Assembly (NCBI GenBank): GCA_937121175.1
Contig: CAKZKD010000002.1
Coordinates: 434,001 to 498,000, forward strand
DNA: 64,000 nt
Direction: 5' to 3'
DNA from: an uncultured Flavobacteriales bacterium
GTDB lineage: Bacteria > Bacteroidota > Bacteroidia > Flavobacteriales_G > Salibacteraceae
The notes beneath the pieces were generated by a model. It made no database searches, was not told where the DNA came from, and was given only the letters and a program-made list of their open reading frames with translations. Shown in pieces: positions 20,618 through 26,488 of this stretch. A program made the translations under genes and the position numbers. The number at the start of each line of letters is the position of its first letter. The stretch's first letter is position 1.

Positions 20618-21286
20618 ATGCTTAAAACTAAGGTCTTAATTATTGTTGGATTATCCGGATTAATACTTGGACAATCTTGTAAAAAAGAGGTGTTTGACAC
20701 CACAGAACCGGTTGTGGACCCTTCATTAGATTGTAAAGAAATAAACTACGATGCAGGTGCAAAAGCAATTTTTGAAGCAAAATGTATCATTTGTCATGGA
20801 GAGACGAATGCTGGGCCAGGAGATTTTAGAGACCCAAGCAAGATAACTAATGTATTGGCTAAAGTTCGTAACCGAGTTGAAGACCGAACAATGCCACCCG
20901 CGAGTTCAGCTCAACTGACTGATGACGAACTGGATGTTGTTCTCAAATGGATTGATTGTGGCGCAAGTTTTGAAGGAACTGTTGTAGATACAACAGACAC
21001 TACAACAACTCCAATGGATACAACAAACAATACTACTCCAGATACATTGACTTATGAGAAAGATATCAAGTCATTGATTCAGGCTAAATGTGCTAATTCT
21101 TGTCATGGGGGAAGTGGTCCTGGAATAGGAGACTTCACAAATACGGCAATTTTTAAAGGAAAGGTTGACAGCGGAAAATTTGAAAATAGAATATTAGTAA
21201 AAATGGACATGCCAACAACTGGCCCATTACCTAAAGAAGACAGAGATAAATTACAAAAATGGCTCGACCAGGGCGCAAAATTTTAA
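20618..21286 (+). CDS. Diheme c-type cytochrome lipoprotein with one CX3CH site
   Basis: This 222-residue protein has a lipoprotein signal (LILGQSC, Cys about 21) and two tandem cytochrome-c-like domains joined by a Thr/Asp-rich linker. The first domain has a normal heme motif CIICH and ends MPPASSAQLTDDELDVVLKW; the second has the unusual spacing CANSCH and ends DRDKLQKWLDQGAKF. The ATG at 20618 is preferred because the frame upstream of it is not signal-like. It is followed closely by a YceI protein and a DUF5777 barrel, suggesting a shared envelope role, perhaps electron transfer. The redox partner is unknown. Confidence 0.85.
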   Translation: MLKTKVLIIVGLSGLILGQSCKKEVFDTTEPVVDPSLDCKEINYDAGAKAIFEAKCIICHGETNAGPGDFRDPSKITNVLAKVRNRVEDRTMPPASSAQLTDDELDVVLKWIDCGASFEGTVVDTTDTTTTPMDTTNNTTPDTLTYEKDIKSLIQAKCANSCHGGSGPGIGDFTNTAIFKGKVDSGKFENRILVKMDMPTTGPLPKEDRDKLQKWLDQGAKF

Positions 21287-21303
21287 TTCCTAAAACAATA
21301 AAT

Positions 21304-21858
21304 ATGAAAATGAAATTATTAGCATTAGCAATATGTGGGCTTTTGAGTGGCTCGGCAATTGCTCAGGACGTATTTTCAGTAGAATCTACTAAGGTGAAAT
21401 TCTTCTCTGAGGCTCCTTTGGAGAACATTGAAGCAGTTACAACTAAGTCACAGGCTTTGGTGAACAAAGCTTCTAAAAGCTTCGCTTTTATTATCCCAAT
21501 AAAAAGTTTCGAATTCGATAAAGAACTCATGAAAGAACACTTCAATGAGAATTACATGGAATCTGGAACACACAAAACAGGTTCTTTTAAAGGTAAGATA
21601 ATTGGTGATGTGGATTTTGGTAAACCGGGCAAATACGAAGTCGAAGCCAAAGGAATATTAAAAATTCATGGAGTTGAACAAGAACGAACCATCAAAGCTG
21701 TACTTGAGTTGACGAAGAACGGCTTTAAAATTCACAGTGAATTTAAGGTAAAATTAGAAGACCATAAAATTGAAATTCCAACCGTGGTTTTTCAAAACAT
21801 TGCGGAAGTTATTGACGTAACCGTTGATTTTGCATTCATTCCAAAACCAAAAAAATAG
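21304..21858 (+). CDS. YceI family periplasmic lipocalin-like protein
   Basis: The 184-residue protein has a signal peptide (MKMKLLALAICGLLSGSAIAQ) and a single YceI domain: DVFSVESTKVKFFSEAPLE at the start, GSFKGKIIGDVDF, KYEVEAKGILKIHGVEQ and a final strand IDVTVDFAF. YceI proteins form an elongated beta-barrel that holds an isoprenoid or amide lipid. It lies 17 nt after the diheme lipoprotein gene and 6 nt before the DUF5777 gene, a clear operon. An upstream in-frame ATG at 21259 overlaps the cytochrome gene and lacks a signal, so it was rejected. Confidence 0.92.
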   Translation: MKMKLLALAICGLLSGSAIAQDVFSVESTKVKFFSEAPLENIEAVTTKSQALVNKASKSFAFIIPIKSFEFDKELMKEHFNENYMESGTHKTGSFKGKIIGDVDFGKPGKYEVEAKGILKIHGVEQERTIKAVLELTKNGFKIHSEFKVKLEDHKIEIPTVVFQNIAEVIDVTVDFAFIPKPKK

Positions 21859-21864
21859 AGCCTA

Positions 21865-22776
21865 ATGAAAAAGCTACTACTAATTCTAATTCCCTCTATT
21901 ATTTGTCTAAGTACCTACGCTCAAGACGACTTAATGGATATGCTTGAAGAAGAAGAACCTGCCGAAAATTATAGAGTAGGCCCTACGTGGAAGACCATGA
22001 AGTTGGTGAATCTACACTCTACTTCAATGGTAAAGAAAAAGGGGTTGGACTTTAGAGTTACGCACAGGTTTGGGTCCATCGGAAAAAATAGTGGAGGTGG
22101 AGTGCACAATTTGTATGGCCTTGACATTTCTGATGATATCCGAATTTCGTTTGATTATGGAATTACGGAGGATTTACAAATAGGAGTTGGTAGAAGTAAA
22201 TTCTCAGAATTAATTGATGGTTCAATCAAGTACAAGGTTTTAGCCCAAAAAGAAAGAAAAGTCCCGCTTACAGTGGTTGTTTTAGGAAATATGGCTATTA
22301 CTCCCCAAAAAGCAATCGACACTAGATACGATGATTGGCAAAACAGACTTTCTTATTTCACTCAATTAATCGTAGCCCGTCGTTTCGGTGATAGAATTTC
22401 TTTTGAACTTGCTCCAGGGTTTCTCTACAGAAATTTGGTTTTAAAAACTACAGATGGAGAAGGAAATAATCTTGAAGATGAAAACTCCAACCTGGCTCTG
22501 GGTTTTGGCGGTAGATTCATGATTACCAAGCGCGTTGGACTAATTGTCGATTACGTTTATGTGGTTTCGGATTATAGAGAGAATTATAAGCCAACTGCAT
22601 ACTACGATCCTCTTGGTATTGGCGTTGAAATTGAAACTGGAGGTCATGTTTTTCATATAACTATGACTAATGCCGCTGGAATCATGGAAAACAACTACAT
22701 TCCCAATACTACGGCAAACTGGGCCGATGGAGGTATGAAACTAGGGTTTAATATTTCTAGAGTGTTTCAGTTTTAA
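21865..22776 (+). CDS. DUF5777 family outer-membrane beta-barrel protein
   Basis: This 303-residue protein has a signal peptide (cleavage near TYAQ), an acidic linker and then alternating strands typical of an outer-membrane barrel, ending GMKLGFNISRVFQF with a terminal Phe. The DUF5777 pattern (LDFRVTHRFGSIG, DISDDIRISFDYGITEDLQ) is recognisable. No activity is known for the family. Being the third gene of the diheme-YceI operon, it may be the outer-membrane partner of those two proteins; this is inference. Confidence 0.85.
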   Translation: MKKLLLILIPSIICLSTYAQDDLMDMLEEEEPAENYRVGPTWKTMKLVNLHSTSMVKKKGLDFRVTHRFGSIGKNSGGGVHNLYGLDISDDIRISFDYGITEDLQIGVGRSKFSELIDGSIKYKVLAQKERKVPLTVVVLGNMAITPQKAIDTRYDDWQNRLSYFTQLIVARRFGDRISFELAPGFLYRNLVLKTTDGEGNNLEDENSNLALGFGGRFMITKRVGLIVDYVYVVSDYRENYKPTAYYDPLGIGVEIETGGHVFHITMTNAAGIMENNYIPNTTANWADGGMKLGFNISRVFQF

Positions 22777-22819: not shown

Positions 22820-23560
22820 GTGAACGTATTATTTTCTCAATATTTGGAACCCCTATCTGCAATGATTTTTCTATTAGATGCGTCTCAAGTCGCACTAATT
22901 GCGTCGGAACGAGTTGAAATAGCACCTTTTTGGGAATTGGTAAGCGTTATGATTGCATTAGGGATTTTGGCGGGGCTAAAGCGAATTTTTAACAAGAAAT
23001 TGGTGCAATACGCGAATGCACTAATAAGCAAACGATTTATAGGCCAACTTACCAGAGAAGAACGCAGTAGCGAAAGTATGAGTGTCGTGCTATTGGAAAT
23101 ATTTCACTTTATTGTAATCGCATTATTTGCCAATCTCGCTTATCTGTATGTTAACCCACTTTTTCTACTAGAAGGGTTTGAAGGTTTTGCCTTTTTTTTT
23201 ATGATTTTTCTGATTTTTCATTTGATCAAGGTGTTCATTAATAACCTGCTTGGGTGGTTACTCGAGATGCCAATTGCATTTAATGATTTTAGTTTCTTCA
23301 ATTTTCTAACTCACGGTGCAACCGGAGTTTTGCTTTTTCCAATAGTTGTGTTGCTTTTATTCAGCCATTTATCCTCTTTTGCTCTCTTAGGCACGGGCGC
23401 ATTAATCATAGCAATTTTGTACCTCTATCGAATATCGCGTTTGGCGCTGCGTTTCTGGTGGGAGAAAAGTTTTAGACTGAAGTACTTTATTTTATACATT
23501 TGCGGCCTCGAAATTTTACCGGTTTTGGTGTTGGTTAAATTTGCCCACAATTCCTTGTAG
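22820..23560 (+). CDS. DUF4271 domain integral membrane protein
   Basis: The 246-residue protein has about six hydrophobic segments (near 45-60, 90-110, 120-140, 165-190, 195-210, 225-240). The start is GTG. DUF4271 is a Bacteroidota family of unknown function commonly found next to hemD, as here, which hints at an unexplored link to heme synthesis or to the inner membrane. There are no catalytic motifs. Confidence 0.8.
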   Translation: MNVLFSQYLEPLSAMIFLLDASQVALIASERVEIAPFWELVSVMIALGILAGLKRIFNKKLVQYANALISKRFIGQLTREERSSESMSVVLLEIFHFIVIALFANLAYLYVNPLFLLEGFEGFAFFFMIFLIFHLIKVFINNLLGWLLEMPIAFNDFSFFNFLTHGATGVLLFPIVVLLLFSHLSSFALLGTGALIIAILYLYRISRLALRFWWEKSFRLKYFILYICGLEILPVLVLVKFAHNSL

Positions 23561-23617
23561 AATAATAGGTTACGAAGCTTTTTTTAGCTTTATTGTTGGA
23601 ATTAATTAGGCTGTAAA

Positions 23618-24373
23618 TTGAAGGATTTGAAAGTAAAAACCATTCTGGTTTCTCAACCGAAACCCGAAAACGATAAATCACCTTATTTTGATTTAGCTGA
23701 AAAACACAAACTGAAAGTAGATTTCAGGTCGTTTATTCACGTTGAAGGAGTACCAGTTCTAGAATTCAGAAAGCAGAAGCTAAACCTACTTGATTTTGGC
23801 GGTGTAATATTCACTAGCCGTAATGCAGTTGACCACTATTTCAGAATGGCTGAAGAAATGAGAATAACCATTCCTGACTCCATGAAATACTTCTGTACAT
23901 CAGAATCAACAGCATACTATTTACAGAAATATGTAGTATTTAGAAAGCGAAAAATCTTCCATGGTAAGCTTAAACTTACTGATTTAATTCCTTTACTGAA
24001 AAAGCATTCAGAAGAAAAATTTTTACTACCTACCTCAGATATATTGAAGCCAACGGTTCCTGAAACGCTAGAAAAAGCTGGAATTCATTACGAACGTGGT
24101 ATTTTCTATAGAACTGTTTGTAGTGATTTAAGTGATTTAGCGGATGTCTATTACGACGTGTTAGTGTTTTTTAGCCCTTCTGGAATAAAGTCATTGTTCC
24201 AAAATTTTCCTGAATTTAAGCAAAAGGAAACTCGAATAGCTTGTTTTGGTCCTACAACCAAACTAGCAGCCGAAAAAGAAGGTCTAAAAGTAGATATTCC
24301 AGCTCCAACACCTACTGCACCAAGTATGACTATGGCAATTGAAGCTTACGCCAAAAAGGTCAATAAAAAATAG
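23618..24373 (+). CDS. hemD: Uroporphyrinogen-III synthase HemD
   Basis: HemD closes hydroxymethylbilane to uroporphyrinogen III with inversion of ring D, in heme synthesis. The 251-residue protein has the two-lobe pattern of the flavobacterial HemD, with KTILVSQPKPEN at the start, GVIFTSRNAVDHY near 65, and VLVFFSPSGIKSLF and ACFGPTTKLAAEKEG later. The start is a TTG at 23618, or a second TTG at 23627; no ATG lies near. It ends at a strong terminator. Confidence 0.9.
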   Translation: MKDLKVKTILVSQPKPENDKSPYFDLAEKHKLKVDFRSFIHVEGVPVLEFRKQKLNLLDFGGVIFTSRNAVDHYFRMAEEMRITIPDSMKYFCTSESTAYYLQKYVVFRKRKIFHGKLKLTDLIPLLKKHSEEKFLLPTSDILKPTVPETLEKAGIHYERGIFYRTVCSDLSDLADVYYDVLVFFSPSGIKSLFQNFPEFKQKETRIACFGPTTKLAAEKEGLKVDIPAPTPTAPSMTMAIEAYAKKVNKK

Positions 24374-24396
24374 TTGTAATAATATATTGAGATTGT

Positions 24397-24424
24397 AAAA
24401 GGGTGGAGTTTTCACCCTTTTTTT
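24397..24424 (+). terminator. Rho-independent terminator after hemD
   Basis: A perfect 9-bp stem (AAAAGGGTG with CACCCTTTT), a 7-nt loop and a T run. Confidence 0.9.
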
Positions 24425-24431
24425 GTGTGTC

Positions 24432-24821
24432 ATGTCTCAACGATTTGGAAAAGAACATAAGCTGAAGTCGAAGCAGGAAATCGATACTCTTTTTAAAAAG
24501 GGAAAACGAATACATGCTCCGATAGTTCTTTTGGTGCATCATGCCGAGAAAATGGAAGAAGTTCATGAAGGGACACCTCGGTTATTGGTTTCTGTCCCTA
24601 AGCGAAATTTTAAAAAAGCAGTTGATAGAAATTTACTCAAGCGCAGAATTAGAGAATCGTACAGAATCCAGTTAAAAGAATTTGAGGTAGGAACGGCAAC
24701 CTCTTATCAATGTTATTTTGCTTTGGTGTATAAAGACACACGAATAAGAGATTTTAACGAAATTAAAAGTTCAATAACTCTACTTTTACGAAAGCTAGAA
24801 GTTAAAAACAAAGAATTATGA
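24432..24821 (+). CDS. rnpA: Ribonuclease P protein component
   Basis: RnpA binds the catalytic RNA of RNase P and helps it cut tRNA 5' leaders. The 129-residue basic protein has GKEHKLKSKQEIDTLFKKGKR, RLLVSVPKRNFKKAVDRN and the RNR-like helix NLLKRRIRESYR. The ATG at 24432 is used rather than a TTG 9 nt upstream inside the terminator tract. No rpmH precedes it, unlike in many bacteria. Its stop overlaps the next ATG by 4 nt. Confidence 0.93.
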   Translation: MSQRFGKEHKLKSKQEIDTLFKKGKRIHAPIVLLVHHAEKMEEVHEGTPRLLVSVPKRNFKKAVDRNLLKRRIRESYRIQLKEFEVGTATSYQCYFALVYKDTRIRDFNEIKSSITLLLRKLEVKNKEL

Positions 24822-26488
24822 TTTGGACAAAAACAAAGAAAACCGTTGCTGGACTTGTATTAGTTGTAAGTTCATTCGGATTGGTTGCTTATAATTCGGT
24901 AAGTGATAATTATTTCGAAATTTCAAAGAACCTAGACATTTTCGTTAACTTATATAAGCAACTTAATATCTATTATGTTGATGAAACCAACCCAGGAGAA
25001 TTAATTAAAACGGGCATTGACGCAATGCTTGAATCCTTAGATCCTTACACGGTTTATATTCCGGAATCAGACATTGAGGATTATCGTTTTATGACAACCG
25101 GCCAATACGGTGGAATAGGTTCCTTAATTCGCAAAAAAGGAGAATACGTAGTTGTAGCAGAACCGTACGAAGGCTTTCCAGCGTTCAAATCTGGGCTTAT
25201 TGCTGGAGATATTATTTTATCGATTGACGGACATGAAGTAAAAGGAAAAAACACCGGCGAGATTTCTAAACTATTGAAAGGTCAAGCCAAAACGGATGTT
25301 AAACTAACCATTGAACGGTACGGTGAAGAAATTGAAAAGACCCTTACTCGAGAAAACATTAAAATCAAGGATGTCCCTTATTTTGGTGTTATTGAAGAGG
25401 GAGTTGGTTACATTAAACTAACCAGTTTTACTGAAACAGCCAGCAAGGAAGTCATTAAGGCATTCAAAGAATTAAAAGAAAAACATAACATTTCGAAACT
25501 CATATTTGACCTAAGGGGCAATGGTGGTGGACTGTTAAATGAAGCCGTGAATATTGTAAACATATTTGTACCTAGAGGTACAGAAGTGGTGTACACAAAA
25601 GGTAAAATGAAAGAATGGCAACAAAGTTACAAAGCATTAAATACCCCGATAGATACTGAAATACCGTTGGTAGTTCTGGTTGACGAAGGGTCTGCATCGG
25701 CATCAGAAATTGTAAGTGGTGCTTTGCAAGATTTAGATAGAGCCGTAGTAATTGGCGAACGTACATTCGGCAAGGGACTAGTGCAGCAGGTGAAACCGCT
25801 CACGTACAATTCGCAATTTAAAGTGACGGTTGCCAAATATTACATTCCTAGTGGTAGATGTATTCAAAAATTGGATTACTCGAATAAGACTGATGGTAAG
25901 GCAACTGCCGTGGCAGATTCATTAAGAAAACAGTTTTTTACGAATGCAGGGAGGCCCGTTAAAGATGGTAAGGGAGTTCTGCCTGATGTTGAAGTAGATT
26001 TACCAGATGCTGCAGATGTTACGGCGTCATTGTTGGGCAAAAACCACATTTTCGACTATGCGTCATTATTCAGAAAAAACAATGAGAGCATTGTAACCGC
26101 TAAGGAGTTCTCATTGTCAGATGAGCAGTATCAAGAGTTTGTGTCCTTTTTGGATGGCAAAGATTACGATTACACTACGAGGACTGAAATGGTTTTAGAA
26201 AAACTAAAAAAAGCTTCTGAAGAAGACAAATATTACGACAGGATTAGTGCTGATTATGAAAAGTTAGTGGCGGATATTAAGGGAAACAAAGACAAAGACC
26301 TATTGCTACACAAAGAAGAGATTTTACAAATTTTAGAAAATGAAATTATATCAAGGTATTATTATCAGAAAGGAAGGATAGAGCATAGCTTAAAAAATGA
26401 CCCTAGAGTGCAAGAGTCTATCGATGTACTTAATAAAAAGGCGCGATATTCTGGGATTTTAACAGCCTCCGCAGATTCTAAGAAATAG
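24818..26488 (+). CDS. S41 family C-terminal processing peptidase (second of two)
   Basis: This 556-residue protease has an N-terminal membrane anchor or signal (about 10-27), a PDZ domain (about 95-175) and an S41 core with RGNGGGLLNEAV, the catalytic Ser in DEGSASASEIVS and the Lys in ERTFGKGLVQQ. A long acidic C-terminal tail extends about 130 residues beyond the core. It is translationally coupled to rnpA, a pairing that looks conserved in flavobacteria. Confidence 0.93.
   Translation: MIWTKTKKTVAGLVLVVSSFGLVAYNSVSDNYFEISKNLDIFVNLYKQLNIYYVDETNPGELIKTGIDAMLESLDPYTVYIPESDIEDYRFMTTGQYGGIGSLIRKKGEYVVVAEPYEGFPAFKSGLIAGDIILSIDGHEVKGKNTGEISKLLKGQAKTDVKLTIERYGEEIEKTLTRENIKIKDVPYFGVIEEGVGYIKLTSFTETASKEVIKAFKELKEKHNISKLIFDLRGNGGGLLNEAVNIVNIFVPRGTEVVYTKGKMKEWQQSYKALNTPIDTEIPLVVLVDEGSASASEIVSGALQDLDRAVVIGERTFGKGLVQQVKPLTYNSQFKVTVAKYYIPSGRCIQKLDYSNKTDGKATAVADSLRKQFFTNAGRPVKDGKGVLPDVEVDLPDAADVTASLLGKNHIFDYASLFRKNNESIVTAKEFSLSDEQYQEFVSFLDGKDYDYTTRTEMVLEKLKKASEEDKYYDRISADYEKLVADIKGNKDKDLLLHKEEILQILENEIISRYYYQKGRIEHSLKNDPRVQESIDVLNKKARYSGILTASADSKK

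Follow-up and report, generated by a model that had tools for sequence, protein, structure and literature searches.

The genes for a c-type cytochrome-like lipoprotein, a YceI-family protein and an outer-membrane barrel of the DUF5777 family form a real module, which recurs widely in Bacteroidota, well beyond chance. Within four same-strand genes of DUF5777, YceI was encountered in 127, a cytochrome in 126 and a Rieske protein in 21 of 157 loci, such that 142 of them carry an electron carrier of one kind or the other. Because this partnership with YceI and a redox lipoprotein is consistent, a domain of unknown function gains a testable hypothesis, and the combination of DUF5777 with a protein of lipid-binding type and a redox lipoprotein directs that hypothesis towards outer-membrane redox chemistry in a major phylum. 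The interest thereby moves from an unusual heme site, which looks incidental, to the module as a whole. A preliminary description of the locus had seen in the trio a compact envelope module and had called for a survey of DUF5777 neighbourhoods; the survey bears it out, the arrangement being conserved. Its remark that the trio had not been described agrees with the open-access papers searched, none of which names DUF5777 or PF19089; a description elsewhere is possible.

The trio, its surroundings and its recurrence

In the window, by which the whole stretch of 64,000 nucleotides analysed is meant, the module and its nearest 3' neighbours are laid out as follows.

20618-21286, + strand: c-type cytochrome-like lipoprotein, predicted diheme, 222 aa (ATG at 20618, stop at 21286); Cytochrome_CBB3 match in Pfam
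20783-20797, + strand: heme site 1, CIICH, C56-H60, from the sequence
21089-21106, + strand: heme site 2, CANSCH (CX3CH), C158-C162-H163, from the sequence; the nearest relative (locus L124) has CAGCH there
21304-21858, + strand: YceI-family protein, 184 aa, predicted periplasmic; PF04264, Sec-type signal peptide read by eye
21865-22776, + strand: outer-membrane barrel of the DUF5777 family, 303 aa, with 12 predicted strands; PF19089 (E 9e-86), AlphaFold2 model
22820-23560, + strand: DUF4271 membrane protein; PF14093 (91.1 bits), 43 nt downstream of DUF5777
23618-24373, + strand: uroporphyrinogen-III synthase HemD, heme biosynthesis; PF02602 (127.3 bits)

The Pfam assignments of the trio lie above their cut-offs, with 53.4 bits for Cytochrome_CBB3 (cut-off 27), 41.5 bits for PF04264 (23.7) and 287.6 bits for DUF5777 (23.1). 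Coordinates and strands hold as first described, and so do the short gaps of 17 nt between the cytochrome and YceI genes and of 6 nt between YceI and DUF5777, as well as the two in-frame heme sites, one CXXCH (CIICH) and one CANSCH. Export signals, common direction, tight spacing and co-occurrence across Bacteroidota are features that can be read from the sequences themselves. Upstream of the trio lies a divergent acyl-CoA dehydrogenase gene, and on its 3' side a co-directional run encodes DUF4271, HemD, RnpA and an S41 peptidase (window 22820-26488). DUF4271 occupies the equivalent place in 30 and HemD in 29 of the 157 DUF5777 loci, the complete DUF4271-HemD-RnpA block following DUF5777 in 26 of them. 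As this block may be ordinary synteny, the proximity of HemD was given no weight.

Of the 295 genomes sampled from the class, 259 have DUF5777, as do 25 of 61 in a phylum sample. The 157 loci are the window, 59 from a class sample, 18 from family relatives that were anchored on the cytochrome, and 79 on named contigs; five barrels occur twice among them, since five of the loci L143-L222 repeat other sets. The class sample (60 loci, L033-L092, one of them without a DUF5777 call) was chosen among the better-scoring matches listed and holds seven loci from the window's own family, the remainder being one to few per family. The family relatives (L123-L142, 20 loci, two without a DUF5777 call) were picked around matches to the cytochrome, which biases them towards it, and the named contigs (L143-L222, one without a call) are the 80 best matches of the barrel alignment. 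Gene calls follow a greedy ORF rule, and loci cut by contig ends were scored as misses.

Within four same-strand genes, the cytochrome, YceI and both together were present in 53, 40 and 36 of the 59 class-sample loci, in 54, 70 and 49 of the 79 named contigs, and in 18, 16 and 16 of the 18 family relatives, a cytochrome-biased set. YceI was absent from 30 of the 157 loci, and 15 had no carrier, some of these at contig ends. Removal of repeated barrels and short frames left 151 rows with 121 YceI, 121 cytochrome and 21 Rieske neighbours, both carriers being present in five. When same-strand runs with gaps of at most 250 nt are considered, YceI belongs to the run in 127, the cytochrome in 119, both in 98 and neither in nine of the 157 loci. 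YceI stands immediately before DUF5777 in 106 loci, at a median distance of 6 nt (n=105), and the exact order cytochrome-YceI-DUF5777 was seen in 56. Across the 156 non-window loci, near genes (849) included 127 YceI, 175 cytochrome and 21 Rieske genes, while those more than five places off (828) included two, none and none, a contrast that is flattered because the cytochrome and YceI profiles were iterated on these very neighbourhoods and so favour near matches over far ones.

The cytochrome lipoprotein and the spacing of its heme cysteines

Cytochrome domains occupy about residues 40-118 and 143-222 of the lipoprotein and are joined by a Thr/Asp-rich linker. Met-Pro lies downstream of each heme site (TMPP after site 1, DMPTT after site 2), and 200 of the 201 distinct domains of the family encoded beside DUF5777 have the same pair, with the candidate distal Met, behind their heme site. 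CXXCH is likewise found in the first domain of the cytochromes from the relative loci L123-L126, and the invariant residues of alignment set A3 are C21, C158, C162, H163, M198 and P199. The structural model is helical, with a confident domain 2 (pLDDT 92-96) and a low-confidence domain 1; Foldseek returned no PDB match for it, and no PDB sequence relative was found either. The family resembles domains of the Cytochrome_CBB3 and PSCyt1 types in combining CXnCH with a downstream Met-Pro, and differs from them in its variable Cys spacing (2, 3 or 4) and in having 1 to 3 tandem domains.

Cys21 is the likely lipid-bearing residue. It is preceded by G-Q-S, which departs from the strict lipobox (Leu/Val/Ile-like at -3), and the window protein is missed by a lipobox rule that 154 of 170 neighbourhood cytochromes pass. 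Five close relatives have CKKEV(F/Y)D tails, of which four show V-x-S or A-Q-S ahead of the Cys and one shows S-I-G-A-C. Because these relatives, which share its tail, match the lipobox better, the protein was accepted as a lipoprotein by homology; the earlier call is retained on that ground, its own G-Q-S-C21 falling short of the strict motif. Covalent heme attachment is possible, since the genome encodes cytochrome-c assembly proteins, namely a frame of 802 residues that combines PF01578 with CcmF_C, and another protein with PF01578. A whole-genome search for ResB was negative, the 802-residue assembly protein bearing a ResB match below the cut-off.

The CX3CH site, which the preliminary description had pointed out as uncommon, turned out not to characterise the module. 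Among the 201 distinct cytochrome domains beside DUF5777, 108 have CX2CH, 89 CX4CH and only four CX3CH, i.e., domain 2 of the window protein and domain 1 of those from L035, L141 and L142. CX3CH arose at least twice, and some 20 changes of spacing are counted overall on a poorly resolved tree. Among the 20 family relatives, no other gene has CX3CH at this second site, and the nearest relative, 60% identical over the cytochrome protein, carries CX2CH in that position. The spacing was accordingly rejected as a defining, functional feature; CX3CH looks like one of several interchangeable Cys spacings, a local and incidental variation.

The motif also has precedents. A CXXXCH peptide of MmcA from Methanosarcina carries heme according to mass spectrometry (PMC11024163), CX3CH is listed for ImcH of Geobacter and two CymA homologues (PMC6295460), and it is counted among the heme motifs of Gallionellaceae (PMC10734462). 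In MmcA and ImcH, as at site 2, the heme cysteines are three residues apart, and for MmcA covalent attachment of heme has been demonstrated; both differ in being multiheme proteins of other lineages. Comparison of the window protein with L124 gave nonsynonymous differences per site of 0.24 and 0.28 for the two domains and synonymous differences of 0.81 and 0.79 (quoted in place of dN/dS because synonymous sites are saturated); the second domain is as constrained as the first. Since this domain is constrained and confidently modelled, and since published CX3CH sites exist, the CANSCH site probably binds heme and is not new in kind.

It might instead be heme-free or vestigial, leaving a protein that is monoheme in practice. 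Domain number does vary in the family: the cytochrome of relative L126 has three heme sites, many modules have single-domain cytochromes, and two congeners (G237, seen as both L123 and L143, and G320, seen as L125) retain one intact domain each. Behind a stop codon, frame-broken remnants of their second domain are discernible (L143:7180-7440, the same bases as in L123, and L125:6817-6993), which are matched by the second domain of L124 in tblastn (E 2e-9 and 7e-8); the heme His is replaced in one (CVACQ), and a stop falls within the site of the other. A heme domain has thus been lost within the genus; these remnants and the many single-domain modules speak for a vestigial site. For the window protein a vestigial site is nevertheless unlikely, considering that domain 2 keeps its Cys, Cys, His and Met in a well-modelled fold, that it is no less constrained than domain 1, and that the MmcA peptide bears heme.

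An apparent exchange of the carrier; the YceI protein and the barrel

In loci without a cytochrome, a small Rieske-domain lipoprotein is often located beside DUF5777 (confirmed by Pfam in four of four scanned). Altogether, 121 of the 157 loci have a cytochrome only, 16 a Rieske protein only, five both and 15 neither. The raw association between the two carriers gives a Fisher p of 1.2e-9 for loci that are related and not independent. On the DUF5777 tree (151 rows) the presence of Rieske changes four times and that of the cytochrome 12 times, and an independent-pairs test of the exchange had too few informative pairs and no power. As the loci are related and the tree test had so few informative pairs, Rieske in place of cytochrome is to be taken as a pattern, not as proven, resting on few events. 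The alternation is a hint that what the module needs may be an electron carrier as such, not one particular heme protein.

Further parts are often found in the module, i.e., a monoheme cytochrome and a tRNA_anti-like protein. The latter (PF12869, with an N-terminal hydrophobic stretch) is encoded in 42 of the 157 module runs (L033, L051, L058 and 39 more) and is not part of the window trio; in 24 of these 42 loci the order is cytochrome, tRNA_anti-like protein, YceI, DUF5777. Loci of the Rieske type have a protein of about 400 residues with a barrel-like C-terminal part, which precedes YceI-DUF5777 (L174:5486-7416 and L209:5686-7420, by Pfam; also L182, L195, L216 and L219, judged by gene length). 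In L174 the gene of this protein is itself preceded by that of an ECF-type sigma factor (Pfam), and L209 looks alike; the Rieske-type module may be under its own regulation.

The 3.7 Mb genome harbours six YceI genes. None of the other five is directly beside a cytochrome gene in the stretches examined; one has a CXXCH-bearing frame of 483 residues three genes off. A second YceI of the module subfamily (L227:5980-6531; G000:C5, match 204570-204944) was recognized by the module profile with an E value of 6.7e-55, and within the 12.4 kb examined around it neither a barrel nor a cytochrome was found. The sole match in a PDB sequence search with the window YceI, a calcium indicator, was weak (E 0.086) and was disregarded.

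The AlphaFold2 model of DUF5777 (pLDDT 89.4, pTM 0.81) has 12 long strands. Its best structural matches are FapF (Z 17.4), NanC and KdgM (both 17.1), followed by the COG4313 channel and EstA (both 16.2) and NalP (15.6), and further down by LpxR (14.9), a FadL homologue (12.9) and OMPLA (11.9). KdgM, NanC, FapF and COG4313 are likewise barrels of 12 strands; the overall likeness (Z 16-17) goes along with an identity of only 8-10%, and no sequence relative of DUF5777 was found in the PDB. Because autotransporters and the enzymes LpxR and OMPLA share the list of matches, the likeness says little on function. A tblastn search with the window barrel gave no match in phage records.

If both ends of the barrel are placed in the periplasm, the extracellular loops are variable (the commonest residue has a mean share of 0.30-0.54), and the last periplasmic turn (E257, T258, G259, G260 and H261) is invariant in 44 of 44 sequences, as expected if the periplasmic face of the barrel meets partners. 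In the same orientation the invariant residues H67, F69, G85, R110 and N269 would sit towards the outer end, and the periplasmic turn 175-177 is variable, which in the model counts against a purely periplasmic role.

Possible functions and comparison with known systems

Ligand, electron flow and purpose of the module are matters on which we infer. Our tentative reading, possible if somewhat short of probable, is that of an outer-membrane redox/lipid module working like the proteobacterial BcnA-LcoA system without belonging to it. The cytochrome, anchored at the outer membrane, would exchange electrons with an isoprenoid quinone or an oxidised lipid that YceI carries, while the barrel would either dock the two proteins or let a hydrophobic or small substrate in or out at the outer membrane. 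Most likely this would serve an antioxidant purpose, in that quinones or lipids of the envelope are kept in the reduced state. Heme number and Cys spacing would be of little import, and a Rieske protein could substitute for the cytochrome. The more general proposition of a widespread, as yet unnamed redox module, in which a YceI shuttle and DUF5777 form the core and the lipoprotein carrier is replaceable (a cytochrome with one to three hemes and any spacing, or a Rieske protein), is doubtful. If true, it would give Bacteroidota a route for the reduction or oxidation of outer-membrane quinones or lipids.

Two other roles have to be weighed against the proposed redox/lipid module. DUF5777 could be a channel whose substrate, a small or hydrophobic compound, would be bound by YceI in the periplasm and oxidised or reduced with the cytochrome or Rieske protein as electron partner. 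Channels and transporters are indeed prominent among the structural matches (FapF, NanC, KdgM, COG4313, the FadL homologue), and YceI is a family of hydrophobic-ligand proteins; EstA, NalP, LpxR and OMPLA, however, stand in the same list, and no dedicated enzyme recurs in the neighbourhoods: once DUF5777, the cytochrome, YceI and the tRNA_anti-like protein are set aside, the next neighbour cluster is present in only six of the 60 loci of class sample plus window. We regard this role as rather unlikely. The lipoprotein might also be exported to the cell surface and exchange electrons with partners outside the cell, DUF5777 anchoring it in the outer membrane. Surface export signals of Bacteroidetes consist of a polar residue or Lys followed by acidic residues near +3 to +6 and vary by species (PMC5080379), and the tails of the relatives, many of which read CYYDNEEEL, resemble them: 79% of the 135 distinct tails from cytochromes have an acidic residue at +4, against 21% of 169 other tails that are lipoprotein-like by a loose rule. 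Yet +5 is acidic in only 2% of the cytochrome tails, and the window tail CKKEVFDTT, with Lys at +3 and Glu at +4 only, lacks the minimal signal K-(D/E)2 because no second acid is adjacent. Furthermore, proteins of one to three hemes are not like the multiheme wires of known conduits, and a barrel predicted with 12 strands could not enclose a cytochrome. This role as a whole is quite improbable, and the lipoprotein itself may face either the surface or the periplasm.

The strand number also bears on the comparison with porin-cytochrome conduits of the MtrCAB kind. MtrB has roughly 26-28 strands. DUF5777, predicted with 12 and accompanied by a protein with two heme sites, would be too narrow, an enclosed cytochrome is unlikely, and an electron conduit through the barrel was rejected on the predicted strand number.

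The nearest known system is BcnA-LcoA, which pairs the gene of a lipocalin of the YceI family with that of a cytochrome b561, and in whose mutants the peroxidation of membrane lipids is raised (PMC9113575). In the published proposal the cytochrome returns a quinone bound by the lipocalin to its reduced state, which is the antioxidant role suggested above for the trio, and a Neisseria homologue is reported to bind ubiquinone-8 (PMC9113575). With the trio it has in common a YceI-family gene beside a cytochrome gene, the envelope location and a conserved pairing (PMC9113575). A b561 profile matched none of the five window proteins scanned with Pfam, and YceI sits between the c-type cytochrome and DUF5777. 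Whereas BcnA-LcoA employs a membrane cytochrome b561 and no barrel, the trio of Bacteroidota has a c-type (or Rieske) lipoprotein, a constant barrel partner and a different phylum as its home.
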